This document shows positions 20,642 through 61,900 of a stretch of 64,000 bases of DNA, piece by piece (the stretch's first letter is position 1; every line of letters starts with the position of its first letter). The translations under genes and the position numbers were made by a program. This DNA comes from Burkholderia ubonensis subsp. mesacidophila (GTDB lineage: Bacteria > Pseudomonadota > Gammaproteobacteria > Burkholderiales > Burkholderiaceae), in the NCBI RefSeq assembly GCF_002097715.1, contig NZ_CP020738.1, positions 1,116,001 to 1,180,000 on the forward strand, read 5' to 3'. The notes beneath the pieces are model-generated. The model did no database searches. It saw only the letters and a list, made by a program, of their open reading frames with translations, and was not told the DNA's origin.

Positions 20642-21715
20642 ATGAAGATTGCAGTGCTGCCCGGCGACGGCATCGGTCCGGAAATCGTCAAGGAAGCGGT
20701 GAAGGTGCTGAACGCACTCGGCGAGACGTTCGAGCTCGAGGAAGCGCCGGTCGGCGGCGCGGGCTACGAGGCGAGCGGCCATCCGCTGCCGGACGCGACG
20801 CTCAAGCTCGCGAAGGAAGCGGACGCGATCCTGTTCGGCGCGGTCGGCGACTGGAAGTACGACTCGCTCGAGCGCGCGCTGCGCCCCGAGCAGGCGATCC
20901 TCGGCCTGCGCAAGCATCTCGAGCTGTTCGCGAACTTCCGCCCGGCGATCTGCTATCCGCAGCTCGTCGATGCGTCGCCGCTCAAAGCCGAACTGGTCGC
21001 GGGCCTCGACATCCTGATCGTGCGCGAGCTGAACGGCGACATCTACTTCGGCCAGCCGCGCGGCGTGCGCGCTGCGCCCGACGGCCCGTTCGCCGGTGCG
21101 CGCGAGGGCTTCGACACGATGCGCTATTCGGAGCCGGAAGTGCGCCGCATCGCGCACGTCGCGTTCCAGGCTGCGCAGAAGCGCCAGAAGAAACTGACCT
21201 CGGTCGACAAGTCGAACGTGCTCGAAACGTCGCAGTTCTGGCGCGACATCATGATCGACGTGTCGAAGGAGTACGCGGACGTCGAACTGTCGCACATGTA
21301 CGTCGACAACGCGGCGATGCAGCTCGCGAAGGCGCCGAAGCAGTTCGACGTGGTCGTGACCGGCAACATGTTCGGCGACATCCTGTCCGACGAGGCGTCG
21401 ATGCTGACCGGCTCGATCGGCATGCTGCCGTCGGCGTCGCTCGACAAAAACAACAAGGGCCTGTACGAGCCGTCGCACGGCTCGGCGCCCGACATCGCGG
21501 GCAAGGGCATCGCGAACCCGCTCGCGACGATCCTGTCGGCCGCGATGCTGCTGCGCTACTCGCTGAACCGCGCGGAGCAGGCCGATCGCATCGAGCGCGC
21601 GGTGAAAAAGGTGCTCGAGCAGGGCTACCGCACCGGCGACATCGCGACGCCGGGCTGCCGGCCGGTCGGCACGGTTGCGATGGGCGACGCGGTGATCGCG
21701 GCGCTGCAGGACTGA
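20642..21715 (+). CDS. leuB: 3-isopropylmalate dehydrogenase
   Basis: NAD-dependent oxidative decarboxylase of 357 residues, third enzyme of the leucine branch. [11 protein letters not shown] opens the protein, and the signature [14 protein letters not shown] carries the metal-ligand aspartates. DKSNVLETS supplies the catalytic lysine region, and [15 protein letters not shown] the NAD-binding loop. It lies 74 bases after leuD in the same direction. Confidence 0.98.
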
Positions 21716-21725
21716 AGCAGGAAGC

Positions 21726-21758
21726 GCGAACGGGGCCGGATCGAACGGCCCCGTTCGC
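21726..21758 (+). terminator. 12-bp perfect hairpin after leuB
   Basis: GCGAACGGGGCC and GGCCCCGTTCGC pair completely around a nine-base loop, 10 bases after the leuB stop. No T-run follows, so it may be a transcript-stabilising or pausing hairpin rather than a full intrinsic terminator. Confidence 0.5.
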
Positions 21759-21806
21759 GCCCGATTGGCCGTTGTGCGGCCAGACAGGTTTGTGTAGACT
21801 CGTGCG

Positions 21807-21926
21807 ATGGCGCTGATTTCCCTGATCTCCCCGGTCCTGAAACCCCACGGCAACACTGCCCGTGCGGTTACGCGCGCCATCGTCATCACGAAAACCATCA
21901 CCACGAAAACGATCATTAAACGCTGA
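21807..21926 (+). CDS. Thr/Ile-rich putative attenuation leader peptide upstream of asd
   Basis: A 39-residue frame (ATG 21807, TGA 21924-21926) that ends 82 bases before asd. Its C-terminal part [15 protein letters not shown] has five Thr and five Ile in 15 residues, closely resembling the style of the enteric thr operon leader. Asd makes the common precursor of Lys, Met, Thr and Ile, so such a leader is in the right place to sense charged tRNA-Thr and tRNA-Ile. It is followed by a long hairpin at 21939-21984. The frame is too short for ordinary gene calling. I recognise no homologue by name. Confidence 0.65.
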
Positions 21927-21938
21927 TCGTCCGTCGTG

Positions 21939-21984
21939 CCCGCCTGTTTCCCCGCGCGGTCACGCCGGGGGCGGAAATGGCGGG
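21939..21984 (+). promoter_or_regulatory. leader hairpin between the Thr/Ile peptide and asd
   Basis: CCCGCC-TG-TTTCC-CCG pairs with CGG-GGGC-GGAAA-T-GGCGGG (21939-21954 with 21966-21984), giving a long GC-rich stem with small bulges. It begins 12 bases after the leader stop and ends 24 bases before the asd ATG. There is no T-run, so the switch may act through Rho, through pausing, or on translation rather than by a standard intrinsic terminator. Confidence 0.5.
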
Positions 21985-22008
21985 GAAGCTCCATTCAAAG
22001 GGTTAGTC

Positions 22009-23130
22009 ATGAACGTAGGTCTCGTAGGTTGGCGCGGCATGGTCGGCAGCGTCCTGATGCAGCGCATGCAGGAAGAGGGCGATTTCGACCTGATCGAACC
22101 GGTGTTTTTCAGCACCAGCAACTCGGGCGGCAAGGCGCCGTCGTTCGCGAAAAACGAGACTACGCTCAAAGACGCGACCAACGTCGACGAGCTGAAGAAG
22201 TGCGACGTCATCATCACGTGCCAGGGCGGCGACTACACGAACGACGTGTTCCCGAAGCTGCGCGCGGCCGGCTGGAACGGCTACTGGATCGACGCGGCGT
22301 CGTCGCTGCGGATGAAGGACGACGCGGTCATCGTCCTCGACCCGGTCAACCTCGACGTGATCAAGGACGCGCTCGTCAAGGGCACGAAGAACTTCATCGG
22401 CGGCAACTGCACGGTCAGCCTGATGCTGATGGCGCTCGGCGGCCTGTTCCGCGAGAACCTCGTCGACTGGATGACGGCGATGACCTACCAGGCCGCATCG
22501 GGCGCGGGCGCGCAGAACATGCGCGAGCTGCTGTCGCAGATGGGCGCGCTGAACGGCGCGGTGCAGGCACAACTCGCCGACCCGGCGTCGGCGATCCTCG
22601 ACATCGACCGCCGCGTGCTGGCTGCGATGAACAGCGACGCGATGCCGACGAGCCACTTCGGCGTGCCGCTCGCGGGCTCGCTGATTCCGTGGATCGACAA
22701 GGATCTCGGCAACGGGATGTCGAAGGAAGAGTGGAAGGGCGGCGCGGAAACCAACAAGATTCTCGGCAAGCCGGCGATGGGCGAGCCGGGCTCGATTCCG
22801 GTCGACGGTCTGTGCGTGCGGATCGGCGCGATGCGCTGCCACTCGCAGGCGCTGACGATCAAGCTGAACAAGGACGTGCCGCTCGACGAGATCAACGACA
22901 TCCTCGCGTCGGCGAACGACTGGGTGAAGGTCGTGCCGAACGAGCGCGACGCGTCGATGCGCGACCTGTCGCCGGCGAAGATCACGGGCACGCTGTCGGT
23001 GCCGGTCGGCCGCCTGCGCAAGCTCGCGATGGGCGGCGAATACCTGTCGGCGTTCACCGTCGGCGACCAGCTGCTGTGGGGCGCGGCCGAGCCGCTGCGC
23101 CGCATGCTGCGCATCCTGCTCGACAAGTAA
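22009..23130 (+). CDS. asd: aspartate-semialdehyde dehydrogenase
   Basis: NADP-dependent reductase of 373 residues that makes aspartate semialdehyde, the branch point to Lys/diaminopimelate, Thr, Met and Ile. [15 protein letters not shown] at the N-terminus binds NADP. Cys134 in [15 protein letters not shown] is the catalytic nucleophile, and MRCHSQALT carries the substrate histidine region. This is the Gram-negative type. The ATG at 22009 follows AAAGGG. Regulation by the leader at 21807-21984 is inferred. Confidence 0.98.
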
Positions 23131-23178
23131 GCCCGACAGGGGCATCCGGCCCGCGGGCCGGATGGTCCACGCAACAAA

Positions 23179-23227
23179 CGCGCCGCGCCGGCCGTGACGA
23201 TGTCTCGGTCCGGCGCGGCGCGTTTTT
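23179..23227. terminator. intrinsic terminator between asd and the flgE-like gene
   Basis: CGCGCCGCGCCGG pairs perfectly with CCGGCGCGGCGCG around an 18-base loop and is followed by TTTTT on the plus strand. It lies between convergent genes. A smaller hairpin, GCATCCGGCCC/GGGCCGGATGG, precedes it at about 23143-23165. Confidence 0.85.
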
Positions 23228-23237
23228 CATGTGCGCG

Positions 23238-37425: not shown

Positions 37426-37465
37426 CGCCGACGCACGCCGTCGAACAGGCGTGATAGGATGTGGC

Positions 37466-37526
37466 CTTGCGTCGATTTGATTTCAGCTTGCGGACGCGGG
37501 GTTTCATCCCCAAACAGCTAAAGCGA
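37466..37526 (+). promoter_or_regulatory. SAM-II (SAM-alpha) riboswitch aptamer upstream of metZ
   Basis: The leader contains in order GCGTC (37469-37473), GATTTGA, CAGCTTGC, the closing arm GACGC (37493-37497), a small GGGG/CCCC hairpin, then AAACAGCTAAAGC (37512-37524). The P1 pairing, the GATTTGA and CTTGC elements, and the 3' GCTAAA segment that forms the pseudoknot match my knowledge of the SAM-II consensus. The extra hairpin in the third loop is unusual but tolerated in that class. It would shut off metZ when SAM is abundant. Confidence 0.78.
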
Positions 37527-37527
37527 A

Positions 37528-37606
37528 GGCCGGCGGCAGCCGGCCCGAGTCGACCGCTGTCGTACCGCACGAAGCCCGCTGATGCCGATGCATAGCGGGC
37601 TTTTTT
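37528..37606 (+). terminator. riboswitch expression platform: hairpin and intrinsic terminator before metZ
   Basis: GGCCGGC/GCCGGCC (37528-37545) follows the aptamer directly. Then AAGCCCGCT pairs with AGCGGGCTT (37572-37580 with 37594-37602), ending in a run of six T. The terminator sits between purF and metZ and 55 bases before the metZ start, as expected for transcriptional control by the aptamer. Confidence 0.8.
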
Positions 37607-58964: not shown

Positions 58965-61900
58965 ATGCTACAAATGTCCCGGCGCCAGTTCCTGAAAGTG
59001 ACCGCCACGTCGCTCGCCGGATCGAGTCTTGCCCTCATGGGCTTCTCGCCGACCGAAGCGCTCGCGGAGGTCCGTCAGTACAAGCTGGCGCGAACCGTCG
59101 AAACGCGCAACACCTGTCCATACTGCTCTGTCGGCTGCGGCATCCTGATGTACAGCCTTGGCGACGGCGCGAAGAATGCGCAGTCCAGCATCATCCACAT
59201 CGAAGGCGATCCCGATCACCCGGTCAACCGCGGCACGCTGTGCCCGAAGGGCGCGAGCCTGATCGACTTCATCCACAGCCCGAGCCGCCTGATGCATCCG
59301 GAATACCGTGCGCCCGGCTCGGACAAGTGGGAGCGCATCTCGTGGAACGACGCGCTCGACCGGATCGCGAAGCTGATGAAGGCCGACCGCGACGCGAACT
59401 TCGTCGAGACGACGGAGGACGGCGCGAAGGTCAACCGCTGGCTCACGACCGGCATGCTGGCCGCGTCGGCGGGCAGCAACGAGGTCGGCTACCTGACGCA
59501 CAAGGTCATCCGCAGCACGGGGATGCTCGCGTTCGACAATCAGGCGCGTGTCTGACATGGCCCGACGGTGGCAGGTCTTGCCCCGACGTTTGGCCGTGGA
59601 GCGATGACGAACCATTGGGTCGACATCAAGAACGCGGACGTGATTCTGGTGATGGGCGGCAATGCAGCCGAGGCCCATCCGTGCGGATTCAAGTGGGTAA
59701 CGGAAGCGAAGGCGCACCGCAAGGCGCGTCTGATCGTCGTGGACCCGCGCTTTACGCGCACCGCCTCGGTGGCGGACTATTACGCGCCGATTCGCACCGG
59801 CACCGACATCGCCTTCCTGGGCGGCGTCATCAACTACCTGCTGACGAACGACAAGATCCAGCATGAGTACGTGAAGAACTACACGGACTTCTCGTTCATC
59901 GTGCGCGAGGATTTCACGTTCAACGACGGCATCTATTCCGGCTACGACGCGGAGAAGCACGCGTACCCGGACAAGTCGAGCTGGGACTACGAACGTGGCG
60001 ACGACGGCTTCGTGAAGGTCGACCCGACGCTGCAGCATCCACGCTGCGTCTACAACCTGCTGAAGCAGCACTACTCGCGCTATACGCCCGCGATGGTCGA
60101 GCAGGTGTGCGGCACGCCGAAGGACAAGTTCCTGAAGGTCTGCGAGATGCTCGCGACAACGGCCGTTCCAGGCCGCGCCGGCACGGTGCTGTACGCGCTC
60201 GGCTGGACGCACCACTCGATCGGCGCGCAAATCATCCGCACCGGCGCGATGGTGCAGCTGCTGCTCGGCAACATCGGCATCGCCGGCGGCGGGATGAACG
60301 CGCTGCGCGGCCACTCGAACATCCAGGGGCTGACCGACCTCGGGCTGATGTCGAACCTGCTGCCGGGCTACATGACGCTGCCGATGCAGTCCGAGCAGGA
60401 TTTCGACGGCTATATCAAGAAGCGCGTGCAGCTGCCGCTGCGGCCGAACCAGCTCAGCTACTGGAAGAACTACAAGGCCTTCCACGTCAGCTTCATGAAG
60501 TCGTGGTGGGGCGATGCGGCGACCGCCGAGAACAACTGGGGCTACGACTACCTGCCGAAGCTCGACAAGCAGTACGACCTGCTGCAGACGATCGAGCTGA
60601 TGAATGCCGGCAAGATCAACGGCTACATCTGCCAGGGCTTCAACCCGCTCGCGGCGGCGCCTTCGAAGGTGAAGACGGCCGCGGGGCTCGCGAAGCTGAA
60701 GTGGCTCGTGATCATGGATCCGCTCGCGACCGAGACGTCGGAGTTCTGGAAGAACCACGGCGACTACAACGACGTCGATTCGTCGAAGATCCAGACCGAG
60801 GTGTTCCGTTTGCCCACCACGTGCTTCGCGGAGGAAAACGGCTCGCTCGTGAGTTCGAGCCGCGTGCTGCAATGGCACTGGAAGGGCGCGGAGCCGCCGG
60901 GCGAGGCGCGCAGCGATCTCGAGATCATGTCGGGGCTGTTCCAGCGCATGCGCGATGCGTACAAGAAAGATGGCGGCAAGTTCCCCGACCCGATCGTGAA
61001 CCTGACCTGGCCGTACGCGAACCCGGAAAGCCCGACGCCCGAAGAGCTTGCGATGGAGTTCAACGGGCGTGCGCTCGCCGATCTGCCCGATCCGAAGGAT
61101 CCGGCCAAGACGCTCGTGAAGAAGGGCGAGCAGCTCGCCGCCTTCGCGCAGCTGAAGGACGACGGCACGACGGCGAGCGGCTGCTGGATCTTCTGCGGGT
61201 CGTGGACGCAGGCCGGCAACCAGATGGGACGGCGCGACAACTCGGATCCGACCGGCATCGGCCAGACGCTCGGCTGGGCGTGGGCGTGGCCCGCGAACCG
61301 GCGGATCCTGTACAACCGCGCGTCGTGCGACGTCAACGGCAAGCCGTTCGACCCGACCCGGAAACTGATCGGCTGGAACGGCAGCGCGTGGTCGGGCCCG
61401 GACATTCCCGACTATAAAGCCGACGAATCGCCCGAGGGCGGCATGGGCCCGTTCATCATGAACCCGGAAGGCGTCGCACGCTTCTTCGCGCGCGCCGGGA
61501 TGAACGAAGGTCCGTTCCCCGAGCACTACGAGCCGTTCGAGACGCCGCTCGCCGCGAACCCGTTCCATCCGAACAACCCGCAGGCGCTGAACAACCCGGC
61601 CGCCCGCGTGTTCCCGGATGACCGCGCGTCGTTCGGCAAGGTCGCGGAATTCCCGCACGTCGCGACGACCTATCGTCTGACGGAGCACTTCCACTACTGG
61701 ACCAAGCATGCGCGGCTGAACTCGATCATCCAGCCCGAGCAATTCGTCGAGATCGGCGAAGACCTCGCAAAGGAAGTCGGCGTCGTGCACGGCGATCGCG
61801 TGAGGGTGTCGTCCAAGCGCGGCCACATCGTCGCGGTCGCGCTCGTCACGAAGCGGATCAAGCCGCTGACGGTCGACGGCAAGAAGGTCCAGACGGTCGG

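Follow-up and report, generated by a model that had tools for sequence, protein, structure and literature searches.

What is encoded in the gap between leuB and asd of Burkholderia ubonensis subsp. mesacidophila, and could it place asd under the control of amino acid supply? Throughout, the window is the whole stretch of 64,000 nucleotides that was analyzed (contig NZ_CP020738.1, positions 1,116,001 to 1,180,000), and positions are counted from its first letter. The first-pass annotation had described a 39-codon frame before asd with seven Thr and seven Ile codons, and a count in the window confirms this description: the frame runs from ATG to TGA at 21807–21926 and encodes 39 amino acids, seven of each kind. 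The frame and its neighbors are arranged as follows.

20642–21715: leuB, the upstream neighbor of the leader frame.
21807–21926, + strand: leader ORF, 39 codons, probably leaderless; supported by the frame itself, by 13 length classes in frame and by selection on the last 12 codons.
21879–21923, + strand: putative control codons (Thr, Ile, Lys), the last 15 codons; supported by the Thr, Ile and Lys share and the top rank for Thr plus Ile.
21997–22002, + strand: AAAGGG, likely asd ribosome binding site, judged by its sequence.
22009–23130, + strand: asd (ATG at 22009), aspartate-semialdehyde dehydrogenase, the presumed regulated gene.

We take 22009–23130 to be asd from what is established about the family. 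Its enzyme supplies the precursor of Thr, Ile, Lys and Met, and the gene adjoins the leader both in the window and in relatives, so that the downstream gene is one that makes the amino acids presumed to be sensed. The composition of the frame sets it apart within the window: 422 ORFs, each measured from its first ATG, reach 20 codons or more, and of these it ranks first for Thr plus Ile in the last 15 codons, with 10 such codons against 6 in the runner-up. An overlapping His-rich frame (CAT CAC ...) has by eye no in-frame upstream start codon and was set aside.

Relatives were drawn from the best 80 of 593 loci encoding an Asd relative. Inspection by eye placed a homologous leader upstream of asd in 45 of the 80, belonging to Burkholderia, Paraburkholderia, Caballeronia, Trinickia, and Cupriavidus. 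Among the remainder, two have a diverged frame (L069, L073), one locus begins too late for a judgement (L042), and no leader was seen in 32, for example in Massilia, Limnobacter, Pandoraea, and locus L040. A strict filter by script, which required a promoter box, an ATG 6–9 nt behind it and a hairpin, was passed by 43 of the 45 leaders, with L036 and L038 failing, and by 29 of 30 loci of the genus (L081–L110, the window's own included; L092 fails). The combination of box, frame, and hairpin is thus present in 72 of 75 leaders.

The behavior of the frame in these relatives bears on whether it is coding. From the ATG to a conserved CGATC-type motif the distance is a multiple of three in 72/72 leaders despite taking 13 distinct values (with the length classes treated as independent, the chance of this would be (1/3)^12 = 2e-6); the middle of the leader is variable, the peptide ranges from 37 to 55 codons, and the frame is kept across all 13 classes. 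Comparison of 54 distinct 12-codon tails yielded 29 pairs of one-base neighbors, of which 18 differ synonymously, four by exchange within Thr/Ile/Lys, and seven otherwise, where 25.6% synonymous, 11.3% within Thr/Ile/Lys, 60.8% other, and 2.3% stops would be expected (the excess of synonymous changes has a p of about 5e-5, with the pairs related rather than independent). The pN/pS ratio did not discriminate, at 0.88 for the whole ORF and 0.51 for the last 15 codons versus 0.74 and 0.47 in shifted frames. Shifted frames of the 43 fetched leaders contain stops, at about 2% of codons, a second reason for setting aside the His-rich frame. A chance frame is ruled out by the Thr plus Ile rank, the preservation of frame over lengths, and the pattern of codon change.

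In the last 12 codons of the same 43 leaders, Thr accounts for 34%, Ile for 27% and Lys for 21%, together 82%, and the three residues swap for one another at the same positions. The leader is thus a short ORF, predicted to be translated, with clustered codons for the products of its pathway. The first-pass annotation had proposed that an alignment of relatives should reveal Thr and Ile codons kept amid variation elsewhere, and this pattern is seen in the five genera named above and in further genera of the family. Its choice of Thr and Ile as the amino acids probably sensed is supported by the conservation of their codons, and Lys joins the list, given its share. Codon choice was also recorded: AAA and ATT are far commoner in the 43 leaders (146 AAA to 29 AAG; 143 ATT to 177 ATC) than in leuB plus asd of the window (6 AAA to 35 AAG; 4 ATT to 35 ATC).

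On this comparative evidence, a peptide leader that senses Thr, Ile, and Lys is clearly the preferred reading, and on the sequence evidence it is quite probable that the leader is a ribosome-mediated attenuator of asd. Its layout runs from the control codons through a hairpin at the stop codon and a second, switchable hairpin to asd, with the following elements.

21902–21938, + strand: stop-codon hairpin, outer helix CACGA/TCGTG, inner helix ACGATCA/TGATCGT, stop codon at 21924–21926.
21930–21944, + strand: segment after the stop codon, a candidate switch strand able to pair with the loop of the hairpin, the 3′ arm, or asd codons about 9–15.
21939–21984, + strand: long hairpin of the first-pass annotation, one of two alternative folds.
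21947–21955, + strand: arm A, 5′ arm of the conserved stem, TTTCCCCGC.
21980–21988, + strand: arm A′, 3′ arm of the conserved stem, GCGGGGAAG.

The stop-codon hairpin is predicted at −12.8 kcal/mol (z −4.2, 0/200 shuffles as stable). Its inner helix is paired in 95–96% of cells in 32 relatives, with no two-sided change, and its outer helix varies by genus. The first-pass annotation had placed a long hairpin between the leader frame and asd, and had noted that it lacks a T-run and might not act by classical attenuation. Both observations hold: the hairpin is the minimum-energy fold of 21939–21988 (−30.3 kcal/mol, z −2.5, 2/200 shuffles as stable), and the caution was justified, as this is no textbook intrinsic terminator. 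Two hairpins flanking these genes were also recorded, a perfect 15-bp hairpin directly after leuB (21724–21760; −36.9 kcal/mol, z −6.7, no T-run) and one after asd (within 23170–23230) that, unlike the former, ends in a TTTTT run.

In the window, TTTCCCCGC and GCGGGGAAG form a stem, A:A′, which competes with the long hairpin and is nearly invariant in relatives. Across 130 loci, representing 68 distinct sequences with some genomes present more than once, arm A reads CTTCCCCGC in 55 distinct sequences and TTTCCCCGC in 13, and arm A′ reads GCGGGGAAG in 63, GCGGGGAAA in four, and AGGGGGAAG in one; as the search pattern fixed arm A save its first base, and GGGGAA of A′, this invariance is partly a product of selection by the search. 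The loops enclosed by A:A′ span 20–33 nt in the 130 loci. Pair counting found no two-sided change in A:A′, because the helix hardly varies. Of the two marks of an intrinsic terminator, a GC stem followed by a U-run, the stem is present and the U-run is absent: the number of T in the 8 nt behind the stem is 1–5, and it is 2 or 3 in 97/130 loci. Given the U-run-less precedents in Streptomyces lividans considered below, the missing U-run counts against the textbook form and not against an attenuator as such.

Upstream of the leader lies a further conserved element.

21789–21800, + strand: promoter-like box TTTGTGTAGACT, with a −10-like TAGACT at 21795–21800, its end 6 nt upstream of the leader ATG.

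The box takes the form TTTCGTGTATATT or TTCGTGTAGACT in the filtered leaders, and its spacing to the ATG is 6 nt in 59, 7 nt in one, 8 nt in nine, and 9 nt in three of the 72, counts that are conditioned by the 6–9 nt required in the filter. No conserved −35 element was seen by eye upstream of the leaders, and a strict sigma-70 scan found no site at the leader. The pattern of this box followed by an ATG was sought across the genome, and no second occurrence was returned. Transcription usually starts 6–8 nt downstream of a −10 element; with the box 6–9 nt before the ATG, the 5′ end of the mRNA would fall on the ATG or right beside it, and the position of the box makes the leader ORF probably leaderless. 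Leaderless genes are reported for Burkholderia cenocepacia in the text consulted of PMC4603805.

From these elements a mechanism can be proposed. RNA polymerase would initiate on the leader ATG or immediately beside it, and the peptide would be read from a leaderless 5′ end. Were charged Thr-, Ile-, or Lys-tRNA scarce, the ribosome would stall in the last ~12 codons and would cover the 5′ strand of the stop-codon hairpin. The segment behind the stop codon could then pair downstream, which would keep A and A′ apart and allow asd to be expressed. Were the amino acids plentiful, the ribosome would reach the stop codon, the segment would be hindered, A would pair with A′, and expression would fall. 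As output, either transcription could end early in spite of the missing U-run, perhaps with the help of Rho, or translation of asd could be blocked; we lean slightly toward early termination, on evidence that does not separate the two.

The strongest rival overlaps with this reading. It keeps the frame as sensor but assigns the output to asd translation or to Rho alone, the hairpin being no terminator, and we regard it as a real if not quite an even prospect. The lack of a U-run speaks for it. The Rho form agrees in addition with the base composition of the final 45 nt of the ORF, rich in C and poor in G (mean 13.9 C and 6.2 G in 130 loci), as Rho loading sites often are. In one translational form, the segment after the stop codon would pair with asd codons about 9–15 and enclose both A:A′ and the asd start. 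The region around 21930–21944 is complementary to that around 22027–22050, the asd codons for the GWRGMVG motif, most strongly in the Burkholderia group. There the mean pairing energy between the segment and the opening 48 nt of asd is −24.1 kcal/mol, stronger than with 96% of 160 other asd windows, and in Paraburkholderia the pairing is stronger than 92% of other asd windows. In Cupriavidus, however, 57% of other asd windows equal or exceed the pairing with the asd start, as do 16–24% in the remaining three groups. As a general mechanism this pairing was set aside, being strong in Burkholderia and Paraburkholderia but not general, and it is kept as a lead.

Coevolution, with genus labels assigned from sequence patterns, speaks against the translational form as well, with p 0.55 for the segment and the start of asd, where the signal is absent, and p 0.54 for the segment and the asd ribosome site, a negative result. 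Sequestration of this ribosome site by the segment was considered separately; it looked promising in some Paraburkholderia and, by eye, in Cupriavidus, but was rejected as a general mechanism on the cross-genus p of 0.54. The competitor helix between segment and loop, which can form in every lineage, gave a marginal result in the cross-genus test (p 0.08), and the strands of the stop-codon hairpin gave no signal (p 0.23).

Folding models, which contain competing helices in the leader RNA, speak somewhat more for a translational than for a transcriptional output. The modelled probability of A:A′ had no consistent shift as the ribosome was placed at different codons and depended mostly on the length of RNA supplied. 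With RNA ending 2 nt past the stem, it was 0.00–0.15 in the Burkholderia, Paraburkholderia, and Cupriavidus groups, 0.01–0.81 in a Ralstonia-like and 0.25–0.95 in a Mycetohabitans-like group, both of which are small and named by guess. In Caballeronia, RNA ending just past the stem gave 0.02–0.57, with 0.57 reached without a ribosome and less than 0.12 with the ribosome at codons −9 to stop. With 33 nt of asd included, the probability rose to 0.36–1.00 in all six groups, so that in most group models A:A′ is likely only when asd sequence is present. In the fold of locus L010, a helix of the segment with early asd codons encloses A:A′ and the asd start, which explains the high A:A′ probability with asd sequence in that locus. 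A stem that is low where a terminator should act and high with asd tilts the output somewhat toward translation, and these folds, together with the pairing of segment and asd start, led us to raise our estimate of this rival slightly.

The other rivals dispense with the sensing of supply by codons. Were the nascent peptide itself to arrest the ribosome on a small molecule, as TnaC does in response to tryptophan, codon content would be secondary; K37, T38, and I39 (first-row numbering) are indeed invariant in 15 aligned leaders, but sequence and length vary, and the interchange of Thr, Ile, and Lys is more in keeping with the sensing of supply than with a fixed arrest motif, which makes this reading improbable. 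A conserved small protein acting in trans, its place before asd incidental, would suit relatives that databases list as hypothetical proteins (the name given to most leader-like proteins among the 120 matches listed of 244), yet composition is kept rather than sequence and, in the loci read, the link to asd and the hairpins is constant, so we consider it more improbable still. Two such peptides from Burkholderia, P0098 and P0114 (41 and 39 aa), are named 3-isopropylmalate dehydrogenase, a name perhaps carried over from the neighboring leuB. A structured RNA, riboswitch or protein-binding leader, with the ORF incidental would account for the conserved sequence after the stop codon and the nearly invariant arms, but is the least credible of all given the frame kept over all lengths, the synonymous excess in the tails, and an Rfam search of the leader region that matched no family. 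Elsewhere in the window, Rfam matches were recorded to SECIS_3, a selenocysteine insertion element (59550–59608, + strand), and to Bp2_287, a Burkholderia sRNA (37433–37605, − strand).

The distribution of the putative attenuator was estimated with a covariance model, R1, of the last codons and hairpins, built from 32 sequences. R1 matches 191 of 299 family genomes, in 9 of 25 genera. Nearly all of these, the present genome included, hold one match, and four hold two (G033, G291, G570, and G695). Of 30 selected genomes, most of them known matches, 28 have a match at E up to 1. Three of these (G438, G443, and G444) have weak matches alone, with E from 0.004 to 0.28 and located away from asd. 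Twenty further asd loci were read; a leader was recognized in L178 and L183, both from genomes matched by R1, and none was seen in the other 18. L183 has an altered stem, and an exact motif search had overlooked it in L155 of the same genome. An order-wide pattern search gave 2/399, a figure to be set aside in favor of R1, as the first letter of the pattern excluded the Paraburkholderia and Cupriavidus forms. Diverged frames rich in Thr, Ile, and Lys lie, by eye, upstream of asd with other hairpins in Parvibium lacunae (L073) and an uncultured Burkholderiales member (L069), the latter with a T-rich tail after a short stem. The present genome also has a second asd-like gene (G000 contig C2:2817594–2818694, L199; 55% identity), and by eye no such leader lies in the 320 nt upstream of it.

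At asd, the routes to Lys, Met, Thr, Ile, and diaminopimelate, a cell-wall precursor, begin to diverge. If the attenuator is real, sensing three of the four amino acids there would be a compact means of summing demand, and the leader would represent peptide-leader control of the aspartate pathway in many genomes of a betaproteobacterial family, leaderless and without a classical terminator. Such a leader would offer a clear system for the study of how attenuation works without a U-run. Tentatively, and short of holding it probable, we propose that asd is governed throughout the family by a leaderless attenuator, which would integrate Thr, Ile, and Lys without an intrinsic terminator, its nearly invariant stem being read by Rho, by another factor, or by the asd start region.

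One of the closest known systems is the enteric thr leader: in thrL, Thr and Ile codons alternate along a short ORF, and hairpins follow. The asd leader resembles it (RF00506, Thr_leader) in placing an ORF of Thr and Ile codons before a gene of the aspartate family, with hairpins following, but differs in its target, asd rather than thrABC, in its added Lys codons, its length of 37–55 codons, its probably leaderless start, and its lack of a U-run. Identity with the Rfam family was considered and rejected. The best Thr_leader match in this genome scores 31.9 bits against a cut-off of 55 and lies on contig C1, the window being on C2, and the asd leader region has no match at E up to 5; the same search in 14 control genomes gave matches in 13, above the cut-off in one. 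Among the matches listed from open-licence PubMed Central, titles and abstract beginnings contain no description of this leader. The word asd is absent from the main text of PMC4603805 and PMC7563307, and the portions consulted of PMC2965389, PMC3766115, PMC7298713, PMC8079986, and PMC2864571 do not describe the leader.

Two candidate RNAs in the consulted part of PMC2864571 invite comparison. The asd RNA motif (RF01732) is likewise a conserved RNA named after asd, but it belongs to Lactobacillales, in another phylum, and has no match here. The Burkholderiales-1 motif, a candidate RNA of Burkholderiales, is given there in one table row that lists no Rfam entry, in text that does not place it in the genome, and it might be identical to the asd leader. 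Parallels in design are found elsewhere. According to the portions consulted of PMC7298713 and PMC8079986, the attenuator peptide trpL of Sinorhizobium meliloti and the leader peptides LeuL, TrpL, and ThrL of S. lividans are leaderless, with the ORF at the 5′ end of the transcript, as proposed for asd, and some of the S. lividans leaders lack a U-run terminator, as here. In the same portions, these leaders serve other amino acids and genes (ThrL of S. lividans precedes thrS) and encode peptides of 12–29 aa, compared with 37–55 here, and their starts come from RNA data, where that of the asd leader is placed by its promoter-like box.
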